Source: Planctomycetota bacterium (GTDB taxonomy: Bacteria; Planctomycetota; JAJSAM01; JAKLKS01). Taken from it: DNA of 33,953 nt. Each line of letters begins with the position of its first letter. Positions within the stretch are counted from its first letter, which is position 1. The position numbers and the translations under genes are program-made. Shown in pieces: positions 1-28,839 of the stretch. The notes beneath the pieces were generated by a model. That model did no database searches and was not told the origin of the DNA. It saw nothing but the letters and a program-made list of their open reading frames with translations. The stretch covers positions 1 through 33,953 of the forward strand of contig JAKLKS010000014.1 in the NCBI GenBank assembly GCA_023150535.1. Direction: 5' to 3'.

Positions 1-32
1 GGGGGGGGGGGGGGGGGGGGGGGGGGCGGGGG
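1..32. other. Poly-G homopolymer at window edge, probable sequencing/assembly artefact
   Basis: 26 consecutive G, then C and another G run, at the first bases of the window. Confidence 0.7.
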
Positions 33-782
33 GACGGAGCCCGGCCGGACCCGCTCCACCTCGGCCGCCCAGGCGAAGAGGGCCTCGTCCCGCGAGGGCC
101 CCCCGGCGACGGCGGTCCCGTCCACGGCGTCGGCGGCGATCCAGCGGGTCCCCGGCGGGAAGGCCCCGCGGGCGAGGGCCGCCCGGAGGGCCGCGAGGCC
201 GGCCTCCCCCGTGGGCCCGGCGCGGCGGGCGGCCGGGTCGGGCAGGAGGATCCGCAGCGGGCCGAGGGCGGCGGGGTCGAGGGAGGCGACGAAGGCGGCG
301 ACCCTCTCCACCGGCGGGCCCCCTCCGGCGGCCAGCAGCGGCAGGACCCCCTCCAGCGTCTCCGGCGGCCCCCCCCGGGAGGTCTCGAACCAGCGGCCGT
401 CCTCCGCGTAGGCCACCTGCACGTAGCGGGCCCCCTCGTGGAGGGAGAGGAACCCCGGCCCGAGGCCGCGGAGGTTGGGCGCCTTCCCGGGCCGCGGCGG
501 AGGGGGGGGCGCGGGCTTCAGTCCCGGGATCTCGAGATGGAAGACCTGCCGCGGGTTCCTCGAGAGTGTGAGGACCGGCCAGGGGACGACCCTCCGGGGA
601 TCCCCCTCCTCGACGACGAAGAGCACCCTGTGGTTCCCGTCCGGGTCGGACTCCACCCGGGCCCCGGCCCCGAGGTGGTCGACGGCCATCTCGAAGAGCA
701 TCTCGGCGTGGCGGCGCGTGGGGAGCGCCTCGCGGAGGGCGAAGGCGACGCGGTGCTCCCGGCGGGGGTCGGGGTTCTCCAC
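1..782 (-). CDS. Partial hypothetical protein running off the left edge; likely GTG start at 782
   Basis: Minus-strand frame reads VENPDPRREHRVAFALREALPTRRHAEMLFEMAVDHLGAGARVESDPDGNHRVLFVVEEGDPRRVVPWPVLTLSRNPRQVFHLEIPGLKPAP... with protein-like composition; not in the supplied ORF track. Confidence 0.5.
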   Translation of the reverse strand, partial: MENPDPRREHRVAFALREALPTRRHAEMLFEMAVDHLGAGARVESDPDGNHRVLFVVEEGDPRRVVPWPVLTLSRNPRQVFHLEIPGLKPAPPPPPRPGKAPNLRGLGPGFLSLHEGARYVQVAYAEDGRWFETSRGGPPETLEGVLPLLAAGGGPPVERVAAFVASLDPAALGPLRILLPDPAARRAGPTGEAGLAALRAALARGAFPPGTRWIAADAVDGTAVAGGPSRDEALFAWAAEVERVRPGSVPPPPPPPPPP

Positions 783-869
783 GGGAGGGAGGATCCCACG
801 GGACGGGGGGGGAGGGGGAAGAACCGATCCCCGGGGGAGGCGCCGCCCGAAGGACGGGACGGGGTGTGG

Positions 870-946
<77 letters not shown>

Positions 947-1136
947 GCGGTGAGGTCAGCGGCGCACACCGGGTCACGTCGCCTGTCGAACCCCGAGGTG
1001 CGTATTCCCCTATGAAGCAGGGGAGTGCAAAGCATGGTAGCGGACCTCCTCCGGGCCGGGAACTTCTGCCGGGGCGGGAGGTCTCTGGGGGCCTCCGGGA
1101 GGCCTCCCGGCGAGGTCCAGTGCCTAACTTGCTACC

Positions 1137-2294
1137 TTAGCCCTTCGCGGGCGCATTCAGGCCCTCGTCGGCAGCCTTCCGGGCGGCGTCATCCGTGGAG
1201 TCCAGCGCCCGCACGGCCGCGACCTCCGCGTTGTCGGGCACGTGCGAGGCGTAGCGCGAGGTGAGCGCCAGGGAGCCGTGGCCGGCCAGCGCCTTCACCG
1301 TCGGTAGCGGGACCCCGCTCTGCGCCAGCCTCGAGCAGAATGCGTGGCGCAGCCCGTGAAAGGTCACGGTGGGGAAGCCCGCCGCGGTCGCTGCCTTCCG
1401 GAACCTCGACGCCACGAAGGTGGCGGCCCACGTCGGCTCGAGGTTGGCGATATGGGCGAACACGAAGTCCGGATTGCCCTCCTCGGGGCCGGTCCGTTCC
1501 CCGCGGAGCGCCTTCAGGGTCTCCCTCGCGCGCTGGGTCATGGGGACCTCGCGTGGGCGCTTGCTCTTGCTCTTCCGGACCACGACGACGCCGCGCCCGA
1601 GCTGGACGTCCCTCCACTCGAGGGAAAGGAGCTCCCCGCGGCGGAGACCGGTGTCGGCGGCGACCGCGATCAGGGGACGCAGCCGGGCGTCCGCGGCGTC
1701 GATGATCCGGTCGATGTCGGCGGCCGTGAGGAAGGGGACCTCCTTCTGCTCCTCGCGGGCCCGCTTCACGGCGCGGACGGGGTTCTCGTGGGCGTAGCCT
1801 CGCTCCATGGCCTCCTTGAAGGTGTTCGACAAGACCGCGAAGTACCGGTTCACGGTCGACGGCCGGGCGTGCTTGCCCTTGTGCAGGCGCTTGCTCCGCA
1901 TCCAGGTCCGAAAGTCCTCGATGTCGGACGCCTCGAGCTCGCAGATCGGGCGGTCCCCGAAGAACTCCTGCAGGACTTCGTAGCGGTTCTTGTCCGAGGC
2001 GTAGGCCTTCGGGGCCAGCCGGGCAGCGAGGATCGGCTCCAGCGTCGGCCAGAACTTCTCGAACGTGATCCTCCGGGTCTCGACGACGCCGAGCTTCTCA
2101 CGCTTGAGGAGCGCCGTCTGGATCTGGGCCAACTTCGCCTCCGCCATCGCCTTGGAGGGGCCGACGGCCCGGAAGATGTCCCGTCCCTTGCGGCGGTACC
2201 TGATGTACCAGATCCGTCCGCGGAGGAGGACCTGCCCGAACGACCGCCGCTCCTTCTTCTCCTCCGCTTCCTGCGCCTTCTGGATCTTCGACAT
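1137..2294 (-). CDS. Tyrosine recombinase/phage-type integrase
   Basis: TGLRRGELLSLEW, HGLRHAFCSRLAQSGVPLPTVKALAGHGSLALTSRYAS: R...HxxR...GH...Y catalytic set, with N-terminal SAM-like core-binding region. Confidence 0.92.
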   Translation of the reverse strand: MSKIQKAQEAEEKKERRSFGQVLLRGRIWYIRYRRKGRDIFRAVGPSKAMAEAKLAQIQTALLKREKLGVVETRRITFEKFWPTLEPILAARLAPKAYASDKNRYEVLQEFFGDRPICELEASDIEDFRTWMRSKRLHKGKHARPSTVNRYFAVLSNTFKEAMERGYAHENPVRAVKRAREEQKEVPFLTAADIDRIIDAADARLRPLIAVAADTGLRRGELLSLEWRDVQLGRGVVVVRKSKSKRPREVPMTQRARETLKALRGERTGPEEGNPDFVFAHIANLEPTWAATFVASRFRKAATAAGFPTVTFHGLRHAFCSRLAQSGVPLPTVKALAGHGSLALTSRYASHVPDNAEVAAVRALDSTDDAARKAADEGLNAPAKG

Positions 2295-2639: not shown

Positions 2640-2895
2640 CTTCGAGGGTCTTCAGGAAGGCTCCCAGGTCCTCGCGGGCGAAGATCATCCGGCCGGAGCC
2701 GCGGGCGTGAGACTTGAAGTAGCGGAGCCTCCCCGCCTTCGCCCACCTGCGGACCGTCCGAGGGTGGACGTTGAAGATCCTCGCCACCTCGGCGAGGGGG
2801 AGGAACTCGTCCTTCCTGGCGAAGAGCGCTTCCGCATGGATCTGCGGTACGCGGAGGTGCGCCGGGATCCCGTCCTGCGGGTTATCGGTGGTCAT
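2611..2895 (-). CDS. Second HTH_17/excisionase-like DNA-binding protein
   Basis: FLPLAEVARIFNVHPRTVRRWAKAGRLRYFKSHARGSGRMIFAREDLGAFL; start placed at internal MTTDNPQ. Confidence 0.72.
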   Translation of the reverse strand: MTTDNPQDGIPAHLRVPQIHAEALFARKDEFLPLAEVARIFNVHPRTVRRWAKAGRLRYFKSHARGSGRMIFAREDLGAFLKTLEGGPGASHGA

Positions 2896-4504
2896 GACCT
2901 GTCCTTGTTGTTGGTGGTGTAGGTGCCTCATCGATGGGGGTCGAAATCGATAGAGGAGGGGGGACCCGGCCGGGCCCACCGGGTGCATCCATCCCCCCTC
3001 CCTCCTCGATCTGGGTTACGCGGCACGCGGCGGCATCCGACCGGTTCCCGTTGTGCTCGTTCTTGCAGTAGTCCCTCAGCCGGATGACGCCGAGGGCGCC
3101 GTACAGCACGCCTTCAGGGTCCTGGTTGAGTTCTTCCTGCATCTCGGGGAACCTGCTGAGGGTTTCCTGCAGGGTGAGAAGTACGTGCTCGTCCATGGCT
3201 GCGAAGGCCATGGGGAAGTTTCCGTAGGTGAAGTAGTCCCTCCAGCCGACGAGGTACTCGTTGGCCTTCTTGACTATCTCCCTTGCGGGCGCGGACCTCG
3301 TAGGGTCGGAGACCTTCTTGGTGAACCTCTTCCTGGCGTTCTCTAGAGCCTTGTCGGCCGGGCGCACGGGTACTCCGCTGCCCTGGACAGGTCCAAGGGT
3401 GAAGCCAAGGAAGTCGAAGGGCTCCTTTGAGGAGCCGCGAACGCAGGACTTCTCCCGGTTCAGTGTCAATCCCATCTCGGAGAGCGCCTGGTTGGCCCAC
3501 TCGTACGCCCGGTCCGCGACCTGCCCGGACGGGCAGAGGATCACGAAGTCGTCGGCGTAGGAGACGAGCGACCCTTTCATCTCTCCGAGGAGGACCAGGC
3601 TGTTCCACATCTTGATGAAGCCATCGAGGTAGAGGACGGCGAGCATGGGGCTGATGACTCCGCCCTGGGGCGAGCCACGCACCTTGCGCCTACCGCTCGT
3701 GAACACCACGTGACCCTTCTCGTCACGTTGCTTCACCGGAGACTTGAGCCACATCCTGATGAGGCCGAAGATGCGCTTGTCGGAGAGGCGCCGGGAGACC
3801 ATCGACAGGAGGTCGGCGTGCGGGATTGAGTCGAAGTACTTGGATAGATCCGCATCGACGACGAACCTTTCGTCCCTTGCTAGGCATGTGCGGATCGCCT
3901 GTAGGGCTGTCTTCTGGTTGCGGCGCGACCGGAAGCCGTGGCAATTGTCGGTGAAGTCCGCTTCGAGGATGGGGCCGATGATGAGCAGGACGGCGGTCTG
4001 CACGACACGGTCCTCGACGACCGGGATGCCGAGCGGCCGCGACCCACCTTCAGGCTTCTCGATGAGAACCCGCCTGACCGGCTGAGCCTTGTACCCTCCT
4101 TCCCGCAGGCGGTCCCGGAGTTCCCGGAGCCACTTCTTCCGTCCGTACCTCTCGATGTCCTCGAAGGTCCTGCCGTCGACCCCGGGGGCTCCCTTGTTCT
4201 TCTTCTGGAGCCAGAGGGCCGTGGCGAGGACGACTTCGCGGAACACGTGCTGGTACAGGTTGTGGAAGCGGCGGTCTGGGTTCTCCTTTGCCGCTGCGTA
4301 GAGCTTCCTCTGAAGGCGCTCGACCTTGTCGAAGCGGGCTGGTAGGCGCTTCCGTGCGCCAGTCCCGCGGCCTGCGGCTTCTTCGGTTGCGTTGTCCCAC
4401 GTGAGCTCGGCGATCTCGATCTCGTCCATGGGGACGGGATCGTCAGGGCCAGGGGGGCCCGAGTTGGAAGCCTGGGTTCCCGTGAGCTGCGTGGGGTCGT
4501 GCAT
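2882..4504 (-). CDS. Group II-intron-type (LtrA-like) reverse transcriptase
   Basis: KGAPGVDG, RPLGIPVVEDRVVQTA, DADLSKYFDSIPH, GSPQGGVISP, SYADDFVIL, thumb/X-like C-terminal region; start MHDPTQ chosen because AGAAGGACGGA precedes it (longer ORF begins at 4603). Confidence 0.9.
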   Translation of the reverse strand: MHDPTQLTGTQASNSGPPGPDDPVPMDEIEIAELTWDNATEEAAGRGTGARKRLPARFDKVERLQRKLYAAAKENPDRRFHNLYQHVFREVVLATALWLQKKNKGAPGVDGRTFEDIERYGRKKWLRELRDRLREGGYKAQPVRRVLIEKPEGGSRPLGIPVVEDRVVQTAVLLIIGPILEADFTDNCHGFRSRRNQKTALQAIRTCLARDERFVVDADLSKYFDSIPHADLLSMVSRRLSDKRIFGLIRMWLKSPVKQRDEKGHVVFTSGRRKVRGSPQGGVISPMLAVLYLDGFIKMWNSLVLLGEMKGSLVSYADDFVILCPSGQVADRAYEWANQALSEMGLTLNREKSCVRGSSKEPFDFLGFTLGPVQGSGVPVRPADKALENARKRFTKKVSDPTRSAPAREIVKKANEYLVGWRDYFTYGNFPMAFAAMDEHVLLTLQETLSRFPEMQEELNQDPEGVLYGALGVIRLRDYCKNEHNGNRSDAAACRVTQIEEGGGMDAPGGPGRVPPPLSISTPIDEAPTPPTTRTGHDHR

Positions 4505-7431: not shown

Positions 7432-7474
7432 TTGCCATGTTCACGGAATGTGCTATGTTCATGGGTGCATGAAC
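7432..7474 (+). promoter_or_regulatory. Putative promoter (TTGCCA-N16-TATGTT) with operator palindrome GTTCATG-GGTG-CATGAAC overlapping the antitoxin start codon
   Basis: Perfect 7-bp inverted repeat 7457-7474; -10 candidate 7454-7459; ATG 7469 lies inside the right arm. Confidence 0.5.
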
Positions 7475-8629
7475 AAGCCATCTACCGTGAACCTGTCGAT
7501 GCCCCCTGGAGGGGCCCTGGAGCAGCAACTGCTGGCGAAGCTCCAAGACCTCCTGGCGGGGGTCCCCTGGCTCCCCGCGGCGAGGCTCGATCACCATCCC
7601 GTCGGCCGGAACGCGAGGGGGGACTTCGTCGTGCGCCTCGCCCGCGCGGACGGGAGGGCCGCGGAGCTGCATGTCCACGTCAAGACCGACATGCGCCCCA
7701 GCCAGTTCCACGCCATGGACCACGCGTGGCGCGGTTCCCGGGCGGGCCAGACCGCCGTTCCCATCCTCGGGGTCACCTTCGCATCCGACCGTCTTTCCAA
7801 GTTCTGCCGGGACGCGAAGTGGAGTTGGTTCGACCTGGCGGGGAATTGCTGGATCGACGTGCCCGACTTCCTCCACATCGAGCGGGCCGGCAACAGCCCG
7901 GTCTACCGACGGCCTCCTCAGGGAGCGAGCCTGGGCTCCACTGCCGCGGCGAGGCTCGTGAGGGCCGTGCTCACCCCCGTACACGCCGGCAGGGCGTGGA
8001 AGCAGCGGGACCTCCAGTCCGACACCTGCTGGCCGTCGCCGGATGGCCGCGGAGTGAGTCTCGGCCTCGTCAACAAGGTGGTGAACCACCTCGTCGAGGA
8101 GGACTACCTCGAGCGGGCCAGCGACGGTGTCCGCCTGAAGGAGGCACCCGGCCTACTGGCCGCGTGGAACAAGGCGTATCGGTTCGACCGGCACCAGCGC
8201 CTGAGCTACTTCACCCTGCTGAAGGGCCAGCGGCTCGCGGAGGCGCTCGGCAGAGTCGGCTTCGAGTCCGGCAACCTGGCTGCCTACGGATCGTTCTCCG
8301 CGGCAGAGCGCCAGACGCCCCATGTCCCGCAGCCGAAGACCTGGGTCTACGTCGATGCAGGGTACAAGGACCTCCTCGTGCGCCAGACCGAGGCCAAGGA
8401 AGTGGACTCGGGCGAGAACCTCGTCGTGCTGATCCCGGACGACCTGGGCGTGATGGTCCAGTTCACGGGCGGTGATGAGGGCCACATCGGGGAGAGGCGC
8501 CTGCACTGCACCGACCCCGTGCAGACCTACGTGGACCTCATGCACAGCGGGGGACGTGGCGAGGAGGCGGCGCAGGCCATCCTGGAGCAGAAGCTCCTCC
8601 CGGCGTGGAAGGCCGCGGGTGCCGCATGA
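7469..8629 (+). CDS. AbiEi-like type IV toxin-antitoxin antitoxin (winged-helix)
   Basis: Winged-helix-like region (GVSLGLVNKVVNHLVEEDYLERASDGVRLKEAPGLLAAWNKAY), C-terminal AbiEi-like half, overlap with a downstream nucleotidyltransferase gene. Confidence 0.65.
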   Translation: MNKPSTVNLSMPPGGALEQQLLAKLQDLLAGVPWLPAARLDHHPVGRNARGDFVVRLARADGRAAELHVHVKTDMRPSQFHAMDHAWRGSRAGQTAVPILGVTFASDRLSKFCRDAKWSWFDLAGNCWIDVPDFLHIERAGNSPVYRRPPQGASLGSTAAARLVRAVLTPVHAGRAWKQRDLQSDTCWPSPDGRGVSLGLVNKVVNHLVEEDYLERASDGVRLKEAPGLLAAWNKAYRFDRHQRLSYFTLLKGQRLAEALGRVGFESGNLAAYGSFSAAERQTPHVPQPKTWVYVDAGYKDLLVRQTEAKEVDSGENLVVLIPDDLGVMVQFTGGDEGHIGERRLHCTDPVQTYVDLMHSGGRGEEAAQAILEQKLLPAWKAAGAA

Positions 8630-9468
8630 ACACCGAGCCGAGGACGAAGGACGACTACGGGGATCGCGCGACGGAGGCGGCGCACCGGGTGCTCGTGGAC
8701 CTCGGCCAGGTTCTCGGTACCTACTTCCTCGACGGCATCGTCGTCGTCGGGGGCATGGTCCCCGACCTCCTCGTGAAGGACCCCGGGGAACGCCACATCC
8801 CGAGCCTGGATGTAGACCTTGCGCTGGACCCGGACAAGCTCACGGACGGCAAGTACGCGGAGATGGTGAAGGCGCTCCTGGACACGAAGAGGTACGCCCT
8901 CACGGAACACGCTTTCAAGCTCCGCACGGTGGTGGACCTCGGAGACGGCGGACCTCCCATTCCCGTGGACGTTGACTTCCTAAAGCCGCCGGGAAGGTGG
9001 CCGAGGGACGCGTCGAAGACGGTCCCGGGGTTCCGGCCCCTGGACGCGGAGGCCTGCCGGGCTGCCTTCCTCGCCCCGCAGACCGTGGACGTGAAGGGCC
9101 TCAACACCACGGGGGCAGAGAACACCGTCCACGTCAGCGTGACGTCGCTCGAGGGCTTCTTCATCCTGAAGGCGTACGCGCTCGGCGGGCGCGACAAGCC
9201 GAAGGACGCCTACGACCTCTGCTACTGCATCGAGGAGTCGCCGGATGCCGCGGGCGCGGTCGCCCGTGCCTGGCGCTCCAAGATGGGAGATCCGCTCGTG
9301 GCGGAGTCGCTGCGCATCCTTCGGGAGAAGTTCGAGACGGTTCGGTCGTTCGGGCCGCAGCAGGTCGTCCTCTTCCACAACTCGCCCTCCGCCGAAGAGA
9401 GGGAGCGGCAGGCGCAGTCGGCCTTCCAGTTCATGCGCCGCTTCCTGGAGATCGTCGACGGCGCCTGA
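8626..9468 (+). CDS. AbiEii/AbiGii-like nucleotidyltransferase toxin
   Basis: VVVGGMVPDLLVKD...SLDVDLALD (GG...DxD nucleotidyltransferase motif), ATG overlaps upstream stop. Confidence 0.72.
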   Translation: MNTEPRTKDDYGDRATEAAHRVLVDLGQVLGTYFLDGIVVVGGMVPDLLVKDPGERHIPSLDVDLALDPDKLTDGKYAEMVKALLDTKRYALTEHAFKLRTVVDLGDGGPPIPVDVDFLKPPGRWPRDASKTVPGFRPLDAEACRAAFLAPQTVDVKGLNTTGAENTVHVSVTSLEGFFILKAYALGGRDKPKDAYDLCYCIEESPDAAGAVARAWRSKMGDPLVAESLRILREKFETVRSFGPQQVVLFHNSPSAEERERQAQSAFQFMRRFLEIVDGA

Positions 9469-9720: not shown

Positions 9721-12700
9721 ATGTCCGTCCCGTCCCCGGGGGGCAATCGCCCCCTCGTGGCCGTCGTCGTGGCCACCCACGACCGCACGGCCCTCCTCCG
9801 GACCCGCAGCCTTCCGTCCATCGTTGCCCAGAGGCTGCAGCCCGACCTTCTCGTCCTCGCCGACGACTCCAGCGAGGAGGCCAGTCCCGAGAACGAGAAG
9901 GCCCTCCGGTCGCTGGCCCTTCCTCCGGACAGCCTCGTCTACCTCGGGAACTACCGGACGAAGGGCGCCGCCGGTGCGTGGAACACGGCGCTCGACTGGC
10001 TGCACCGAAAGCACCCGGATCCCGGTCGCGTTTTCGTCGCCTTCCTGGACGACGACGACTCGTGGGAACCCGGCCACCTGGAGGACTGCGTCGCCGCCGC
10101 GGCCGCCGACGACCTCGACGTCGTGGCGTCCGGCCTCTTCCGCGTCGACCACCAGCCCCACGAGCAGCGTCCCCCGGCCGCCCTGCGGGCCGAGGACATC
10201 CTCGTGGGCAATCCCCACATACAGGGGTCGAACCTGTTCGCCCGGCTGTCCGTGCTCCTCGAGGTCGGGAACTTCGATGAGAACCTGACGAACTGCACCG
10301 ATCGGGACCTGTGCCTCCGCATCTGCGATCTCGGGAACGTCCGCTACGGCCCGACCACCTCGGTCACGGTCCGCCACTACGCCGACCGCGATCGGCCCCG
10401 GATGAGCAACCCCGCCACCGGGAGCCTAGACCACGGGAGGACGCAGTTCTGGCTCAAGTACGAGGGGCGGATGACGGAGGCGGTCCGGGAGGCGTCCGCC
10501 GCGCGGGCAGCCCGGCTCTTCGGATGGGAGCCGCCACCCCCTCTGCCGGCGGTCCGGACAGAGGTTCCTGCTGCTCCGCCGTTCGAGATCCCGTTCCCGC
10601 TCGTCGCCGCTGTCGCCACCAACAGCCCCGCCCGCGTCCGGCCCCTGCTCGAGCAGCTCTGCCGGATCGGGCTTCGGGCGACGGGCGGCGGCCTGGACGT
10701 GCTCCTTCTCGCCAACGGGGACGGCCCCCTCGACGACGAGCTCTCGGTGATGGTGGAGGAGATGCGGACCCAAGGGCTGCGGTGCTACCTGCTGTCCCGA
10801 GCCCGGCAGGCCGAGGACGCGCGAAGGGGCGTGTTCGGTCCCGGCTTCACCGTCCCGGTCGGCGCCGCCGAGATCGGCGCGACGCGGACGATGCTGCAGG
10901 TCTACGCGTACGACTTCGCCCGCAGGAGGCCCGGCGCGGTGGTCTGGGTCCTCGACGACGACCTGCGTCCGGACCTCGCCGACCACTACCTCCCGCGCCT
11001 GGCGGAGTTCCGCGCGCAGGGGGTCCACGTCGTACTCGGCTCGTACTCCAGCGCGCCGCCGCTCCCCATCGCCAGCTGCGTCCGGGTCCAGCTCGTGGAC
11101 CTCCTGCACAACCTCCACTGGCTCCGGGGGCTTCCTCCCGATGCCCCGATCCCCGACCGCTCCGGCGAGAACGCCCGCCACCGGGCGAAGTACCCGGACT
11201 ACTACTACGACCTCTCCCGCGCCTGCACCGGGCAGCTGGAGGTGCCGTTCTTCGTGGAACCGGCCTTCCCCGGGGAGACGGCGCGCCAGGCGGAGGCGCG
11301 GCTCGTCGCGTCCGCGGTCCGCATGCTCGCGGGGGAGCAGGTCACGCGGCCGTTGCCGGCGGTGCTGGCAGGGGACCCGATCCAGGAGGCCAGGGAGTCG
11401 GTGGAGCGGGGAGGCAACACCTTCGTCCTCGACATCGAGGCCCTCCGCGACGCCCCCAACCTCGTCCCCCAGCTGGGGGGCCAGGAGACCCGCCGCTCGG
11501 ACATGATCTGGGCCGTCGTGCAGCGGCGCCGCTTCGGCCGGCGGATCGTCCGGGTGGACTTCCCGCTGCGCCAGGACCGGAGCGACCTGCCGCCCGCGGG
11601 CCTCGGCGTGGAGAAGCTCGTGCCCGACATCGAAGGCTATGCCCTGCGCACCGCCCTCCACGAGGTGCTCAAGGAGAAGGCGATCGGCGAGGGGGCCCTG
11701 CAGTTCTCGGACGCGGAGGTCGCGCGTGCCTGCCGGCGTGCGGCCAAGTACCTGGAGGAGCGGCTGGCGGCCTTCTCCCTGAGCTTCTACAGGATCCGGG
11801 GTCTCTCCCGCGCCCTCCGCCGCCTGGACGCCTCGGGTGCGCTCTCTCCCCTGCTCGATGCCCTGGACAGGGACTACACGCCCGAGAACCTTTCCTTCGT
11901 CCGGGAGCGTGTGCGTGTGCTCGGCACCGGCGAGGTCAGCGCCTTCCTGCGGGACCTCGACCGGCGCGTGTCGGAGTTCCGCGGGGTGACGGTTGTTCCG
12001 GAGGACCTGGAGCTGCAGCGGGTGGACAACGCGAGGCGCCAGGTCCTGAGGATGTGCAGCCCCCGGGGCGACCTCCACCTTCTCGGCTGCGGGAACGAGG
12101 CCGTCGTGCTGACCGACGGTCTCACGGTGTTCAAGTACGTCGACTACTGGAAGGCCGCCGGGTCCTCGGCCGCCCGCACCTTCCTGAGTGGACTCGTGGG
12201 AACGTGGCGGGAGAGCCGCTCCCTGTACCCCGTGCTGGCCGTCCGCGAGGAGGGTGTGCACTTCATCCTCGAGTACCCCTTCGAGGAGAGCGAGCCGTAC
12301 GTCGGCGGCCATGGTCCGGGCCTCGTCGCCCTCCTCCGCGAGTGCCGGGAGCGGGGGCTCGCCTGCCGGAACATCCACCCCGACAACCTCCGGGTGGTCG
12401 GCGAGCGCGTGGTCCTGGTGGACTACGGATCCGACCTCCGGCCGCTCACGGACGGGGAGTTCCTCCACATGTGCCGCCGGGCGTGGCTCTCCTGGAGATG
12501 GCACCACCGGCCGGACCTCAAGGCCCTCATGACGAAGGCCCTGAAGGACACGACCCTCCCGGAACTCGATGGCTTTGAGCGGTTCCAGGAGGCGGTCAAG
12601 GGCACGGACGTGAAGGAGAGGCTCGACTCCCGCCTCGCCGAGATCGCCCTCGAGAGGAGCCCCCGGCGCGTCCTCGATGTCGGGTGCGGGAAGGGGGACC

Positions 12701-14802
12701 TCGTTACGCGGCTCAGGGAGGAGTGTGCAGACGCGGTCGGCTTCGACCCCGACGCATCGCTGGCCGTCACAGCGTGGCCCAAGCGCGGCCAAGGGTCCGC
12801 GCTCACTGGCGACCTGGAGATCGTGCGCGCCCGGGGCCCGTTCGACGTCGTGGTGTCGGAGCTGGTGCTGTGCTCTCTCCACGACGATGACGAGTACCGG
12901 GGGGCCCTGGGGACGCTGCGCTCCCTCGTGTCCCACGACGGGCAGATCCTGATCGCCGTCTGCGATCCGTTCTTCACCCAAGGTGGGCCGACCTCCTTCC
13001 AGGAGCGGACCCTCCCCCCGAACGCCGCCTACGAGCAGAGCTTCAACTGGACCAAGCGGGTCCATCGGGGCGGGGACCGTTGGGGAACGAGGGTCGATCG
13101 GCACCGGCCGCTCGAGCGCTTGGAGCGGGATCTCCTGCGCGCCGGGCTGGAGGTCCTGGACGTGGAGCCCGTCCCGACCGTCGACCTGGTGCGCTTCGAG
13201 CCGGCGTCGGAGTTCCTCATCCTGAAGGCCCGGCCGGTCCCGCCGGTGCCCGCCCAGGTCTCGCTCCTCATCAAGGCCTGCGCCATGGACTGGGAGTCCG
13301 TCCACGAGCAGGTGCCCCATCTCGTCGACCAGCTGGAGAGGCCGCACGCCTTCGCGGAGCGGGTGGTGGTGGTGGACTCGCGTACGGACGGCTTCGTCCG
13401 CCAGTACGCCCGGCCGGACCTGCCGCGGCTCCTCGAGGAGCTGGAGGTCCTCCGGGAGGCGGGCGTCATCGACCGCGTCGTCCGTGCAGAAGGTGTCGAG
13501 GCGTTGATGGAGCGCTGGACGGGAAGGTCGACCGTGCATGGGCACTCCGTGAAGGGCGCCCCGCTGTCCGCCTTTTTCGCGGGGGTCGAAGCCTGCTCGG
13601 GCGAGTTCGTCCTCCAGGTCGATGTCGACATGATGGTCGGGAGGGATCCCGCGCGCAGCGACTACCTGACCGGGATGGTGCGCCTCCTCCAGGAAGACCC
13701 TCGGGGCCTCACGGTTGCGATGCCGATCCCGAGGAACTCACCTCTCCCCTGGACCAGCGAGGAGCGCTGGCGCGTGGAGGTCCGGGCCTGCCTGTTTCAC
13801 CGGGAGCGGCTCCTGGCCTGCCGTCCTCTGCCCGTGGACTACGAAGGCGACGTGCCCACCCTGTCGTGGCACCGCGCGCTGGACCGCCTCGTCCAGGACC
13901 GCCTCTGGACCTCCTACCGCGGCGGGGGCGACGGCATCTTCGCCATCCACCCTCCGAACGACCGGAAGAAGTGCGTCGATGGCTGGCTGGCCGTCCTCGA
14001 CGGCATCGAGCGAGGGCAGCTCGCTTCAAGTCAGCGCGACCACGCGGAACTCGTCGCCGACCCCGCGGAGTGGCTCCTGCCGAAGCGGGAGGAGCCCTAC
14101 GTGTTCGTCGTCTGCGGCCGGGATGTCCCCCCGGGCCGCGCCCAGCGCTGCCTCGACTCCCTGCTTCGCCAGGAGGGGGGCGACTGGGGCGTCGTCCTGA
14201 TGGACGACGGCTCCTCGGCCCGGTGCTCCCGCTACCTGTGCGAGGCTGCGAGGGGGTTCGGGGCCAGGGCGACCCGGGTCCGGGTCCGCCGCCGGCGCGG
14301 CCTCCTCGCCAACCTGGTCTGGGCGATCCGCCATGTCTGCGTCGACCCGGAGACGGTGATCATCACGGTGGACCTGGACGACTGCCTGCTCGGCCCCGGG
14401 GTCCTGGCCCGCGTGCGCGAGGCGTACGCGCGGGGTGCCGAGGTGACGGTGGGCTCCATGCTCCGGACCGACAAGTCCGCCCTCTACCCCGTCGACTTCG
14501 AGGATCCGGTCCGGGGGAACGTCTGGCAGCACCTGCGAACGTTCAAGAAGAGGCTCTTTGACCAGGTGCCCGAGGCACTGCTGCGGCCGGACGGGGAGTA
14601 CGTGGACATCCCCAACGACTGGGCGTTCATGCTCCCCATCGTGCAGATGGCGGAGCGCAAGGAGTGGATCCGCGACCCGCTCTACCTCCACGAGCCCTCG
14701 GGCGTGGGCAAGGGGCGGGACCGGGAGCGCCGGGAGACCGAGATCGGGTGCGTGGTGGAGCGGTTCCGGGCGTGGCGGGCGGGCAACGCGAAGGAGCGGT
14801 AA
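9721..14802 (+). CDS. Giant multidomain protein: GT2-like, GT-like, kinase-like, SAM methyltransferase, GT2-like, GT2-like
   Basis: VVVATHDR...FLDDDDSW; VVWVLDDDLRP; GCGNEAVVL...FKYVD...RNIHPDNLRV...LVDYGSD; RVLDVGCGKGDLV; FVLQVDVDMMVG; VVLMDDGSS...IITVDLDDCLLGPGVL; SD AGAAAGGAG. Confidence 0.88.
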   Translation: MSVPSPGGNRPLVAVVVATHDRTALLRTRSLPSIVAQRLQPDLLVLADDSSEEASPENEKALRSLALPPDSLVYLGNYRTKGAAGAWNTALDWLHRKHPDPGRVFVAFLDDDDSWEPGHLEDCVAAAAADDLDVVASGLFRVDHQPHEQRPPAALRAEDILVGNPHIQGSNLFARLSVLLEVGNFDENLTNCTDRDLCLRICDLGNVRYGPTTSVTVRHYADRDRPRMSNPATGSLDHGRTQFWLKYEGRMTEAVREASAARAARLFGWEPPPPLPAVRTEVPAAPPFEIPFPLVAAVATNSPARVRPLLEQLCRIGLRATGGGLDVLLLANGDGPLDDELSVMVEEMRTQGLRCYLLSRARQAEDARRGVFGPGFTVPVGAAEIGATRTMLQVYAYDFARRRPGAVVWVLDDDLRPDLADHYLPRLAEFRAQGVHVVLGSYSSAPPLPIASCVRVQLVDLLHNLHWLRGLPPDAPIPDRSGENARHRAKYPDYYYDLSRACTGQLEVPFFVEPAFPGETARQAEARLVASAVRMLAGEQVTRPLPAVLAGDPIQEARESVERGGNTFVLDIEALRDAPNLVPQLGGQETRRSDMIWAVVQRRRFGRRIVRVDFPLRQDRSDLPPAGLGVEKLVPDIEGYALRTALHEVLKEKAIGEGALQFSDAEVARACRRAAKYLEERLAAFSLSFYRIRGLSRALRRLDASGALSPLLDALDRDYTPENLSFVRERVRVLGTGEVSAFLRDLDRRVSEFRGVTVVPEDLELQRVDNARRQVLRMCSPRGDLHLLGCGNEAVVLTDGLTVFKYVDYWKAAGSSAARTFLSGLVGTWRESRSLYPVLAVREEGVHFILEYPFEESEPYVGGHGPGLVALLRECRERGLACRNIHPDNLRVVGERVVLVDYGSDLRPLTDGEFLHMCRRAWLSWRWHHRPDLKALMTKALKDTTLPELDGFERFQEAVKGTDVKERLDSRLAEIALERSPRRVLDVGCGKGDLVTRLREECADAVGFDPDASLAVTAWPKRGQGSALTGDLEIVRARGPFDVVVSELVLCSLHDDDEYRGALGTLRSLVSHDGQILIAVCDPFFTQGGPTSFQERTLPPNAAYEQSFNWTKRVHRGGDRWGTRVDRHRPLERLERDLLRAGLEVLDVEPVPTVDLVRFEPASEFLILKARPVPPVPAQVSLLIKACAMDWESVHEQVPHLVDQLERPHAFAERVVVVDSRTDGFVRQYARPDLPRLLEELEVLREAGVIDRVVRAEGVEALMERWTGRSTVHGHSVKGAPLSAFFAGVEACSGEFVLQVDVDMMVGRDPARSDYLTGMVRLLQEDPRGLTVAMPIPRNSPLPWTSEERWRVEVRACLFHRERLLACRPLPVDYEGDVPTLSWHRALDRLVQDRLWTSYRGGGDGIFAIHPPNDRKKCVDGWLAVLDGIERGQLASSQRDHAELVADPAEWLLPKREEPYVFVVCGRDVPPGRAQRCLDSLLRQEGGDWGVVLMDDGSSARCSRYLCEAARGFGARATRVRVRRRRGLLANLVWAIRHVCVDPETVIITVDLDDCLLGPGVLARVREAYARGAEVTVGSMLRTDKSALYPVDFEDPVRGNVWQHLRTFKKRLFDQVPEALLRPDGEYVDIPNDWAFMLPIVQMAERKEWIRDPLYLHEPSGVGKGRDRERRETEIGCVVERFRAWRAGNAKER

Positions 14803-14804
14803 CC

Positions 14805-15380
14805 ATGACCGACAAGAGGAAGGTCGTCTCCGTCGTGGGGGACAGCTCGCTGGAGCCCGGCGACCCCCGCATGGCCGCCGCAGAGCGGGTGGGCGAGCTC
14901 CTCGCGGACCACGGGTACCGGGTGATGACGGGCGGCCTCGGCGGGGCCATGGAAGCCGCCTGCCGCGGGGCGCGCCGCTCGGCCGCCTGGACGCCCGGGA
15001 CCACGATCGGGGTTCTCCCCGGCACGGACCCCGCGGAGGCGAACGAGTTCGTGGACGTGGTCCTGCCCACCGGGCTCGACCACGGCCGAAACGTCATCGT
15101 CGCCCAGGCTGACGCCGTCGTGGCGATCGGCGGGGGAGCGGGCTCGCTCTCCGAGGTCGCCCTCGCCTGGGCGCACAAGCGGCTCGTCCTGGCCATGCGC
15201 TGCGACGGCTGGAGCGGGCGGCTTGCCGACGCGCCCGTCGACGGCCGTCGGCGATACCCCGCCATCGAGGACGACAGGGTCTACGGCTTCCAGTCCCCCG
15301 ATGAGGTCCCCGAGCTCCTCTCCCGGCTCCTTCCGCTCTACGACGGCCATCACCGCGGGATCCGGCGGCGCAGGCCTTGA
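14805..15380 (+). CDS. SLOG/LOG-family (TIGR00725-like) nucleotide-binding protein
   Basis: VSVVGDSSLEPGDPRMAAAERVGELLADHGYRVMTGGLGGAMEAACRGA...TIGVLPGTDPAEAN...IVAQADAVVAIGGGAGSLSEVALAW; 2 nt after upstream stop. Confidence 0.85.
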   Translation: MTDKRKVVSVVGDSSLEPGDPRMAAAERVGELLADHGYRVMTGGLGGAMEAACRGARRSAAWTPGTTIGVLPGTDPAEANEFVDVVLPTGLDHGRNVIVAQADAVVAIGGGAGSLSEVALAWAHKRLVLAMRCDGWSGRLADAPVDGRRRYPAIEDDRVYGFQSPDEVPELLSRLLPLYDGHHRGIRRRRP

Positions 15381-15495: not shown

Positions 15496-16335
15496 TCAGG
15501 GACTGAGCGCGGGAAGCGCGCGCGGTGAAGCCTGGGGGACCGCCCCGGTCCATCGGGCACAGGCCATGCGGAATGGGCACCCTCCGCAGAAGCGCGCGTA
15601 GGCCTGGGTCGGCACGGGCTGCCGTTCGCCAGAGAGGATCTCCTCCATCTGGCGCACCGTCGGGTTCACCACGGCGGCGAGCCTCTGGAGCTCCGCGACC
15701 CGATCCTCCGACCGGACCTCCAGCCGGTCCTCGTGCACGGCGGGCTTGACGGTCTTCGTGAGCACGGACCAGCGCCAGGAGGTGACGGGGCGGTTCATGG
15801 TCAACTCGATGCCGCGCGTGTAGGCGACCTTCTGCCCGTCGTGGTAGTCCAGGAGCTCGTCGGTCTGCCGGCGGCTGGCGCTGACCTTGTGGTCGCAGAC
15901 CTCGAACCCGTCCTTCCGGTCGATGACGAGATCGACGAACCCGAGCATCTCGTGGGTCTGGCCCGGGAGCCTGACCCGGAGCTCCTGCTCGACTCCGGCG
16001 ACCGTCCCCTCGATCTTCAGATTGGCTCGCCAGTGCCGGAACAGCCCCTTCAGCCGTTCGAGGATGGTGTCCCGGCCCCTTCTCTCCCCGTAGGCGACCT
16101 CGCCCTCGAGTTCCTGCCCGAGCATCGCTCCCTCGAGGATCTCGATGGACTCCTCCTCGGTCGGCGTCTTCCCGTCTTGCATGCCGCGGAGGTGGTGGGC
16201 CAGGGCCTCGTGCATGGCCGCCCCCTCTGCGAGCGCGACCGGCTTGAACTCCTCGCGGACTCCGATCCTCTTGAAGAACCAAGCGAGGGAGCACTGGTGG
16301 AACTGACGGATCGACGATACAGACCAGGACTGCAT
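15496..16335 (-). CDS. PD-(D/E)XK nuclease, Cas4/RecB-like with probable Fe-S cysteines
   Basis: SVSSIRQFHQCSLAWFFKRIG...GFVDLVIDRKDGFEVCDHKVS...YARFCGGCPFRMAC; start MQSWSV after GGAGAAC. Confidence 0.8.
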   Translation of the reverse strand: MQSWSVSSIRQFHQCSLAWFFKRIGVREEFKPVALAEGAAMHEALAHHLRGMQDGKTPTEEESIEILEGAMLGQELEGEVAYGERRGRDTILERLKGLFRHWRANLKIEGTVAGVEQELRVRLPGQTHEMLGFVDLVIDRKDGFEVCDHKVSASRRQTDELLDYHDGQKVAYTRGIELTMNRPVTSWRWSVLTKTVKPAVHEDRLEVRSEDRVAELQRLAAVVNPTVRQMEEILSGERQPVPTQAYARFCGGCPFRMACARWTGAVPQASPRALPALSP

Positions 16336-26457: not shown

Positions 26458-28839
26458 CTACAGGGTCACGCACGCGTAGACGGTCTTCCCGCGGAGGAGC
26501 AGCTGGGCCTTGCGGGTGCCGATGAGCCGACCGTCGGGCTGCCCGGCCTTGTCCTCGGGGACGAAGCCGAGCGGGTCGTCGCCCATGGCCGCCGAGAGCA
26601 CCTTGTGTCCGTTGGTGGGCGAGTTCGTCCACCGGAAGTCTACGGTGGCCGCGTCGGGCCCGGACTCGTCGATGACGCGGGCGAGGTAGAGCAGCGCCTC
26701 CGTCTCGTCGACCCCGTAGGACGCGCTGATGGCCCGCCAGCCGCCCACCAACTTGACGAGGGTGGTCCGACCCTCCGACAACCTGCACGGGGCCTCCACG
26801 GGCTTCCTGGTGCGCACCACGGCCCGGCCCTCGACGAGCTCGACCGTGGAGGAGCAGCTCTCCAGATGCGGCGGGACCTCCAGTGGCCGCCTGTAGCCGC
26901 CCGTGTCCTGCAAGTCGCGGCAGAGGACGTCCGGGAAGGCGTGGATGGCCATGCTGGCGGTGGACTTCAGGCTCCTGGACCTGTGGCAGAGGTACCAGGC
27001 GCTCCTCGCCGCCTCGACCCTCTCTTTCCCGTTCTTGGTGGCGGCCCAGTCCTTGACGGCCCGGATGGCCTGGCGGATGGCGTCCTCGTCGCCCTCGCTC
27101 TGCGCCACGCGGCGGTTGAAGTGCTGGCGCTGGACCTCGACCTCGGCGAGCACGTCGGCGTCCCCGCGGGGGAGCGGCACGGAGTCCGCGAAGTCCTGGA
27201 GCTGTCCCGCCGGCGCGAGGACGTCCTTCTCGAAGGCGTCCACGGCCCTGTTCCAGAAGACACCGAGGCCCACGTCCGGGACCTTCGGCGCCTTCGTGGT
27301 GAAGACGGACCTGTCCTGGGCGAGCTCAAGCCACTCCGGGAGCCGGAGCCCCGCCTGGCACTCCTCGATGACGGTCCAATCTCTCTCGATGGACCATTTC
27401 AGGCTCATCGTGGCGCACTGGAGGGCGAGGCTGAGACGGGGCACGAGGTCCCTCCGGTCCTTCTCCACGCACGCCGCCACGTACCAGGTCGGCGTCCCGA
27501 TGCCCGAGGCCCCGATGGCGTCCACGGCCACGCGCGGAAGGAGGACCATCCGGGTCCGCTTCCGGGTCTTCGGCGGGATGGGCAGCCGCGGCGGCTCCCT
27601 CCGGTGCATGACCTGGACGCCCCGCTGGACATCCCGGTCGCTCGTGAGGCAGACCCAATCGCCGTCCTGATCTCCATCGATCTCCGCCATCCTCGCGGGA
27701 TGCACGGCGATGCTCCCCTCGGGGACCTCCTTGCAGTGGCGGTTGCGGACGAGCCTCATGCTCCAGCCGTCGCGGATGGGGTAGCGCGACAGGACGTAGT
27801 TCCCCTCCGGGAGCGAGTTGCAGCTCACGACGTGCTGGCAGCGGTCGTCGGCCACGACGCAGGCCATGCCCCCGTGCATGGGGACGGGCCCGAGCCCGAG
27901 CGCCGCGTCGAGGTAGGACCGCCGGACGAGCTCCGAGAGGCGGCGGTGGACCCAGGGGTGGCGCGGGGAGAGCCCGGCCGAGAGGTAGGCCGTCAGGAGG
28001 TCCCTGGCCTCGCGCTGCTCCTCGCCCTCGAAGGCGATGGAGTCGATGAACGCGAGCGCCGAGTCGTTGGAGGTCATCGCGCGCCTCACCGCGTCCAGTA
28101 TGGGCACAGCGTGCTTCTCGAACAGCCTCTCCTGCTGGTCGTGGTCGAGGAACTGGGTCCACGTCCACGAGGACTTGAAGGTGCGGGGCTCCGCGACGTC
28201 CCGGACGGCGACGAGGAACTCCCCGTCGACGCTCTTGCCCACGCTCTTGAGCTGGGAGGAGTGGACGAGGACCTCCACGCCCTCCTTTGCCCGGAGGCCC
28301 TCCACGGGGAGCAGCGTCCCCTTGCCGAGCGTCTTACCCGGCCAGAGGAGTCTGACCTGGAGCTGGCGCACGGGGAGGTTGTGCTCACGCAGCGTGCCGG
28401 CGTCGACCCAGCCCATCCCGTCGCCGAGTCCCCGGTCGGTGACCTTCGCGGACGAGAGGCGAAGGACGTCCCGGGCCTCCGAGAAGAGCAGGCCCGTGTA
28501 CGCCAACGCGTCCTCGGCCGAGCCGAAGAAGCCCTGCACCGCCTTCGCGACCGCGATCGTGCCGGCGTAGAGCTTCCCCTCCTTCACGCCGCCCGACGAG
28601 CCCATGACCCGGAAGCCCCGAATGCCCTCCTGGATGGCGTTGACGAGCCCCAGGCGCTGGGCCATGCCGTCGAAGCCGGTCTCGTCCGGGACCTCGAGGC
28701 GGAGCAGCGCGGCCTCCCCGGCCCCGTAGGCGTGGCCGAAGAGCGTGTTGCGCAAGAGGATCGGCTCCTCCTCCTTCACGTTGCCGTCGACCTCCACGAG
28801 GAACGTCCGCAGCCTGTCCTTCCTCTGCGGCAGCAGCAT
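26458..28839 (-). CDS. Putative single-polypeptide two-barrel (DPBB) RNA polymerase-like protein
   Basis: YVLSRYPIRDGWSMRLVRNRHCKEVPEGSIAVHPARMAEIDGDQDGDWVCLTS resembles the beta-prime core (NRAPTLH...EGxAIxLHP...NADFDGDQMAVH) and the DxDGD of QDE-1/YonO-type enzymes; upstream WPGKTLGKGTLL Lys pair; start MLLPQRK with AGGAGG. Confidence 0.6.
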   Translation of the reverse strand: MLLPQRKDRLRTFLVEVDGNVKEEEPILLRNTLFGHAYGAGEAALLRLEVPDETGFDGMAQRLGLVNAIQEGIRGFRVMGSSGGVKEGKLYAGTIAVAKAVQGFFGSAEDALAYTGLLFSEARDVLRLSSAKVTDRGLGDGMGWVDAGTLREHNLPVRQLQVRLLWPGKTLGKGTLLPVEGLRAKEGVEVLVHSSQLKSVGKSVDGEFLVAVRDVAEPRTFKSSWTWTQFLDHDQQERLFEKHAVPILDAVRRAMTSNDSALAFIDSIAFEGEEQREARDLLTAYLSAGLSPRHPWVHRRLSELVRRSYLDAALGLGPVPMHGGMACVVADDRCQHVVSCNSLPEGNYVLSRYPIRDGWSMRLVRNRHCKEVPEGSIAVHPARMAEIDGDQDGDWVCLTSDRDVQRGVQVMHRREPPRLPIPPKTRKRTRMVLLPRVAVDAIGASGIGTPTWYVAACVEKDRRDLVPRLSLALQCATMSLKWSIERDWTVIEECQAGLRLPEWLELAQDRSVFTTKAPKVPDVGLGVFWNRAVDAFEKDVLAPAGQLQDFADSVPLPRGDADVLAEVEVQRQHFNRRVAQSEGDEDAIRQAIRAVKDWAATKNGKERVEAARSAWYLCHRSRSLKSTASMAIHAFPDVLCRDLQDTGGYRRPLEVPPHLESCSSTVELVEGRAVVRTRKPVEAPCRLSEGRTTLVKLVGGWRAISASYGVDETEALLYLARVIDESGPDAATVDFRWTNSPTNGHKVLSAAMGDDPLGFVPEDKAGQPDGRLIGTRKAQLLLRGKTVYACVTL

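Follow-up and report, generated by a model that had tools for sequence, protein, structure and literature searches.

A conserved pair of genes for a six-domain glycosyltransferase fusion and a SLOG protein: a candidate cassette for a glycosylated nucleobase-type compound

The stretch of DNA considered here, called the window throughout, comprises all 33,953 nucleotides from position 1 to 33,953 of contig JAKLKS010000014.1 (assembly GCA_023150535.1) of a Planctomycetota bacterium. It carries a gene for a 1693-amino-acid fusion of four glycosyltransferase (GT) domains, a kinase-like (KIN) domain and a class I methyltransferase (MT) domain, followed at once by a gene for a protein of the SLOG superfamily. 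The fusion and SLOG genes are a conserved unit, which is our strongest result and is independent of any guess at function. We tentatively read the pair as a mobile, self-contained cytosolic cassette that may make a small glycosylated compound of the nucleobase or nucleotide type, and the results suggest a pathway of a kind that is apparently undescribed. Domain content, operon coupling, the swap of the SLOG partner, the absence of polysaccharide-locus genes and mobility are supported directly.

The fusion protein and its SLOG partner

Full-type (type I) loci were counted when they held at least the GT1, GT2, KIN and MT domains together with downstream sequence (n = 21). They come from five or more phyla and from two viral contigs, and SLOG is adjacent to or fused with the fusion in 18 of them, as the next gene in 14, with one gene between in three and as a single polypeptide in one. 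SLOG was found in none of 33 control loci, which were picked around ordinary GT2-family genes and are not a random sample; chance adjacency is ruled out by 18/21 versus 0/33. Twelve fusion/SLOG junctions have the identical 4-nt overlap ATGA, suggesting translational coupling, and in the window the SLOG start codon, 2 nt past the end of the fusion, is preceded by an AAGGAG ribosome binding site. Distances among the fusions and among their SLOG partners also correlate (Mantel r 0.52, a value reached in 9 of 10,000 permutations), and on one viral contig (L132) the GT core and SLOG share a polypeptide, with PF18306 at 1613-1744. A codon-based gene caller was used for everything except annotated plasmids; it missed at least two SLOG genes (L051 and L059), which were recovered by direct search. 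One initial exception to the linkage, L088, is a locus that ends at a contig edge.

An earlier inspection of the letters alone (the sequence-only reading) had proposed looking for co-occurrence of the two genes across genomes, and this is what the full-type homologs display. It had also named the opposite outcome, homologs in capsule or lipopolysaccharide (LPS) loci without SLOG or a SLOG neighbor that is not conserved; the homologs turned out to be linked in the proportion given above, among neighbors that are not those of capsule or LPS loci.

The fusion gene begins with ATG and has the top codon score in its region (Table 1). A 1039-amino-acid antisense open reading frame (10426-13545, minus strand) is regarded as a high-GC artefact. 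Full-length homologs from other genomes are 42-50% identical to the window protein. Pfam picks up only GT1, GT4 and MT in the fusion, and family alignments were therefore built for the remaining parts. Each of the four GT domains can be assigned to GT-A, from Pfam (GT1, GT4) or from confident AlphaFold models (GT2, GT3, GT4), and the acidic metal motifs are DDDD, DDD, DVD and DLDD. GT2 has zero Pfam matches across 33 homologs; the top Protein Data Bank (PDB) matches of its model are GT-A enzymes, and its Foldseek neighbors include the GT75 mutase MtdL, hyaluronan synthase, GlfT2 and the nucleoside 3'-O-glucosyltransferase AvpGT. A helical region follows and reaches ~12015. For GT3 and GT4 modeled together, the top Foldseek match is the chondroitin polymerase K4CP (7e-17). 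The four GT-A-like domains and the class I methyltransferase that the sequence-only reading had placed in this reading frame have thus been confirmed, the former with the help of the AlphaFold parsing that it had recommended. No clear membrane helix is found in the window's fusion protein, and no nucleic-acid-binding or peptide-binding domain was found.

Table 1. Features of the window, with coordinates and supporting evidence
Feature	Position	Residues	Strand	Evidence
Fusion protein GT1-GT2-KIN-MT-GT3-GT4, 1693 amino acids	9721..14802		+	open reading frame, Pfam, profile, AlphaFold/Foldseek
GT-A domain 1 (GT2 family), DDDD motif	9763..10392	15-224	+	PF00535 2.4e-27, TIGR03965-like
GT-A domain 2, DDD motif	10609..11610	~297-630	+	AlphaFold2 pLDDT 90.7, Foldseek 9e-7 (MtdL)
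Protein-kinase-fold domain, catalytic Asp replaced by Asn	12060..12600	~785-950	+	profile, alignment
Class I S-adenosylmethionine (SAM) methyltransferase domain	12610..13158	964-1146	+	PF13489 3.6e-14; PDB 3e8s
GT-A domain 3	13255..14085	1179-1690 (with domain 4)	+	AlphaFold2 (pLDDT 91.1 with domain 4) and Foldseek, K4CP tandem
GT-A domain 4	14095..14790	1179-1690 (with domain 3)	+	PF13641; AlphaFold2 and Foldseek, K4CP tandem
SLOG gene (LDcluster4 / TIGR00725), 191 amino acids	14805..15380		+	PF18306 4.3e-32, 111.3 bits (cut-off 26.3); TIGR00725 1.5e-31, 109 bits (cut-off 106.9)
AbiEi/AbiEii-like pair, separate module upstream	7469..9468		+	PF09952 1.7e-8, PF08843 5.6e-7
tRNA-Asp then tyrosine integrase, one end of integrative element carrying the pair	870..2294		-	

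The kinase-like domain fared less simply. Its window copy has no Pfam match, and the family profile leads to protein kinases (TTK, 2e-6). Across 35 aligned sequences, G29, G31 and K45 (the glycine loop and Lys) and the metal-binding D141 (the Asp of DxG, here DYG) are invariant; the position of the catalytic Asp of HxD is occupied by Asn in 32, Asp in two and Gly in one. The fold and the HPDN and DYG motifs noticed earlier therefore stand; with Asn at the catalytic position in most relatives, kinase activity is doubtful. The two domains that retain Asp belong to L078 and L090 (Treponema and Bacteroidales bins), so the Asn form may be derived.

The gene predicted from the letters as TIGR00725/SLOG-like scores above the cut-off of both profiles. 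Every aligned operon SLOG keeps an Arg (in 'RN') and a Glu (in 'GGGxG[ST]LxE'), the LOG-type signature, which is not decisive for a phosphoribohydrolase since the molybdenum-cofactor carrier protein has both residues too. The operon SLOGs share a C-terminal motif, GWSGxLAxxxIDxRxRY, that is absent from the stand-alone paralog of the window genome. In the SLOG tree they are separate from LDcluster4 and LOG proteins that stand alone, and an inner clade of 15 is supported at 97/94. The paralog (C504) clusters with its own order and the operon copy with other phyla. The single exception in the tree is a stand-alone SLOG (L190) that joins the operon group with weak support. This gene, nearest to the operon clade (L190/L206, G049:C48), has lipid- and XdhC-type-looking neighbors, and the same genome has a type II cassette elsewhere.

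Cassette types, mobility and surroundings

Three types of cassette can be distinguished. Type I has the order GT1-GT2-KIN-MT-GT3-GT4 followed by SLOG, with a C-terminal histidine phosphatase in some members. Type II has GT1-KIN-GT2 or GT1-GT2, and then GTP cyclohydrolase II-NADAR (RibA-NADAR, or RibA-COG3236), an AsnB-like amidotransferase and an N-acetyltransferase-like gene. In type III, GT1 is accompanied by a radical SAM gene and by a protein of the order GT-KIN-GT3-GT4. Among the cassettes compared, no locus has both SLOG and RibA-NADAR, and AsnB and the N-acetyltransferase-like gene are likewise never found with SLOG at cassette loci; in the window, SLOG occupies the place of RibA-NADAR. 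The three types interleave in the GT1 tree, which indicates that cassettes with a common core have traded their base-processing modules. On riboflavin intermediates, NADAR acts as a ribosyl N-glycosidase (PMC9503650), and the interchange of SLOG and NADAR beside the same GT core is most readily understood if this core draws on the released base or if its product requires cleavage of that N-glycosidic bond. Further fusions, of the GT core with RibA alongside a UDP-sugar dehydrogenase-NADAR (UDPGDH-NADAR) fusion (L045) and of SLOG with a deacetylase (L058), suggest that the parts belong to one pathway. A few loci also have recurrent sugar-modifying partners, namely a UDP-sugar dehydrogenase, a deacetylase or an epimerase.

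The 7-deazaguanine (Dpd/Que) genes lie beside type II and type III cassettes at L045-L046 (G111) and L029 (G058), in two sets: FolE2, DGQHR/DpdB-like, TGT-like and PLD-like genes, and QueC, QueE, QueD and FolE2. We set aside queuosine/Dpd genes as an intrinsic part of the cassette, as they are present at only two loci (G058 and near G111) and resemble a neighboring DNA-modification system.

Relatives are found in 10 of 392 sampled genomes of the window's phylum, its own genome included, and are scattered over families. In a scan of 85,000 species representatives, the best 80 loci were listed, and about 45 at the head of this list are real relatives; among these matches are further members in Planctomycetota, Myxococcota, Bdellovibrionota, Pseudomonadota, Chloroflexota, Bacillota, Bacteroidota, Spirochaetota and Poseidoniales-type archaea, the archaeal ones being related cassettes. 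Many genomes are fragmentary metagenome bins, and several of the taxon names, which derive from such bins, are open to error. Phyla are intermingled in the GT1 tree, which points to horizontal transfer. Two type I members are on IMG/VR contigs, and the phage collection searched gave no match. A type III cassette is on a Salinivibrio plasmid. On the mobilizable Pseudoalteromonas plasmid NZ_CP032092, a type II cassette of four genes (GT/kinase, RibA, asparagine synthase and arylamine N-acetyltransferase; L174, 18388-19395) adjoins traC among tra genes. In the window, the end of the integrative element (870-2294 and 2882-4504, minus strand) also has small helix-turn-helix genes and a group II intron reverse transcriptase; no duplicated att site, that is, a second copy of the tRNA-Asp 3' end, is present in the contig.

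The AbiE and nuclease context described by the sequence-only reading is indeed present in the window, together with mobile DNA, and McrBC, BREX, Dpd, AbiE and plasmid tra genes occur near cassettes elsewhere (McrBC by Pfam, BREX, AbiE and Dpd by PADLOC models). An AbiE-like pair is likewise upstream of a related locus in another genome (G049; L027, 6779-8448). The 176 PADLOC models matched by cassette neighbors versus six by control neighbors are indicative only, as models and not proteins are counted, one protein can match many and the controls are not a random sample. Several cassettes are located in integrative elements, on conjugative plasmids or within defense islands. Other copies stand alone between housekeeping genes, so a defense context is frequent, not universal. 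In PADLOC 2.0, the fusion matches only a generic methyltransferase model (mad2, 6e-9) and SLOG none, and the cassette is described neither there nor in the open-licence literature searched.

Just downstream of SLOG, on the opposite strand (15496-16335, minus), is a Cas4-related PD-(D/E)XK nuclease, and a nuclease of the same superfamily is apparently near the type III cassette L048 (judged by eye). Farther away (26458-28839, minus), a 793-amino-acid protein has a stretch, AEIDGDQDGDWV, that by eye recalls the DxDGD motif of RNA-polymerase-type catalytic domains; this protein has neither a PADLOC nor a PDB sequence match.

Proposed pathway and competing explanations

The chemical steps of the cassette and any biological role, action on phages included, are what we infer from these observations. 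By analogy with the LOG clade, SLOG would cut the N-glycosidic bond of a nucleoside 5'-monophosphate to give a free base and ribose 5-phosphate; LOG-like SLOGs free the base from nucleoside monophosphates in this way (PMC9503650), and the best reading of SLOG in the pair is that it supplies or salvages a base. A new sugar, possibly a furanosyl one, could then be provided by GT1 and the GT75-like GT2, or joined by them to the base or nucleoside, and GT3-GT4 may add more sugars, working like K4CP and other two-domain polymerases. The methyltransferase and the kinase-like domain would tailor the product, as might the fused histidine phosphatase or the linked deacetylase or UDP-sugar dehydrogenase of some relatives. 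In type II, RibA-NADAR takes SLOG's place and would convert GTP to a diaminopyrimidine, followed by base release, such that the base-making module would be interchangeable. Given the lack of both a clear membrane segment and a recurrent transporter family, synthesis and use of the product are probably both intracellular.

Several points weigh against this pathway. Three of the 21 full-type loci (L057, L060 and L063) are without an adjacent SLOG, and type III, with its radical SAM gene, shows no evident enzyme for base production. Many ordinary polysaccharide GTs are among the Foldseek neighbors of GT2, and the modeled likeness of GT3-GT4 to chondroitin polymerase would fit a polysaccharide equally well. 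Base release by SLOG is a prediction by analogy, and among PDB sequences SLOG is matched best by the molybdenum-cofactor carrier protein 2iz5 (5.8e-18). Finally, no conserved transporter, self-resistance/export or regulator gene is found among the shared neighbor families.

The most serious competitor, which we consider doubtful, is that the fusion glycosylates (and methylates) an intracellular macromolecule such as protein, tRNA or DNA and is switched on by SLOG acting as a nucleotide sensor. Some SLOG clades are non-catalytic nucleotide sensors (PMC9503650), several loci are in defense islands with McrBC, AbiE, BREX or Dpd adjoining the cassette, and the apparently altered catalytic site of the kinase-like domain fits regulation. 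The want of a nucleic-acid- or peptide-binding domain argues the other way, as do the LOG-type Arg and Glu kept in all operon SLOGs and the swap with RibA-NADAR, which is metabolic and not sensory.

It is quite unlikely that SLOG processes NAD/ADP-ribose-type signals, a function proposed for viral SLOG and NADAR, and that the GT/kinase enzyme produces or modifies a signal or toxin derived from ADP-ribose. SLOG and NADAR are both classed as domains processing ADP-ribose derivatives and co-occur in viral genomes (PMC9503650), and NADAR replaces SLOG in type II; yet the type II NADAR is fused or paired with RibA, pointing to GTP-derived pyrimidines, and the operon SLOG is of the LDcluster4/TIGR00725 type, whereas viral SLOGs are mainly YpsA-like.

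We regard a secreted nucleoside antibiotic or inter-bacterial toxin as very unlikely. The linkage of putative base suppliers (SLOG or RibA-NADAR) to GT and tailoring enzymes might fit the nucleoside-antibiotic type, and the enzyme types (base release, GT, methyltransferase, AsnB, N-acetyltransferase-like and deacetylase) match such pathways, but no gene for transport, resistance or regulation accompanies the two-gene cassette.

An ordinary capsule, LPS or exopolysaccharide enzyme, to which four GT-A domains, the resemblance of GT3-GT4 to K4CP and the deacetylase or epimerase genes at a few loci might point, is largely refuted. Among 127 cassette neighbors, no GT, Wzx or Wzy family is among the most frequent Pfam matches, whereas 127 control neighbors (of ordinary GT2-family genes) gave 20 GT2, 16 GT-group-1 and seven flippase-type matches; on this comparison we rejected a surface-polysaccharide locus. 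SLOG is moreover coupled to the enzyme, and cassettes stand alone amid housekeeping, tra or phage genes. A place for the cassette in cofactor metabolism, with SLOG as the carrier of a pterin or of the molybdenum cofactor, might be read from the match of SLOG to 2iz5 and is barely credible: no molybdenum genes recur near cassettes, and the operon SLOGs group apart from stand-alone LDcluster4 proteins and share the C-terminal motif that the window genome's paralog does not show.

For the intracellular glycosylated base or nucleotide that we prefer as the product, an anti-phage role is weakly favored over competition or signaling. An unlikely, bolder version is an unknown class of mobile immunity in which a multi-domain enzyme and an interchangeable N-glycosidase (SLOG or RibA-NADAR) would make a phage-blocking intracellular oligosaccharyl-nucleobase or -nucleotide, a viperin-like logic with glycosylation chemistry. 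The type I cassette is compact, with two genes that seemingly encode an entire pathway, and is found in bacteria of many phyla; the swap with RibA-NADAR predicts the step performed by SLOG and opens an uncharacterized SLOG clade to direct enzymatic testing. A glycosylated base or nucleotide, if that is what the cassette makes, would represent a new natural-product family and possibly a new chemical defense.

Likeness to known systems

The operon SLOG and the LOG/TIGR00725 phosphoribohydrolases belong to a common superfamily and share the conserved Arg and the Glu of GGGxGTLxE. The operon SLOGs differ from LOG in forming their own group with an extra C-terminal motif, in being nearer in sequence to molybdenum-cofactor carriers and in being tied to a GT mega-enzyme. 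The LOG-type phosphoribohydrolase AgmA is the adenine source for angustmycin (PMC8599513), supplying free base to a dedicated biosynthetic operon, and we propose that the operon SLOG may have a similar role. RibA-NADAR, the known N-glycosidase of riboflavin intermediates, accompanies the shared GT/kinase core in type II cassettes.

MtdL, a GT75 NDP-pyranose mutase discovered in the context of A201A (PMC9937993), and the nucleoside GT AvpGT have the GT-A fold and DDD motif of GT2, a likeness at the level of the fold, without a Pfam or sequence-level match. The two-domain polymerizing GTs K4CP and heparosan synthase have the tandem GT-A arrangement of GT3-GT4; the fusion differs from them in being a six-domain enzyme away from any polysaccharide locus, with an identity of ≤14% in alignments.

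WbdD-type proteins are kinase/methyltransferase O-antigen cappers. A WbdD-like capping enzyme was a lead that we set aside, as WbdD is absent from the PDB sequence matches obtained. As in WbdD, kinase-like and methyltransferase domains are in one polypeptide, here together with GTs; the fusion is unlike WbdD in its domain order, its fused GTs, its Asn in place of the catalytic Asp and its location outside an O-antigen locus.
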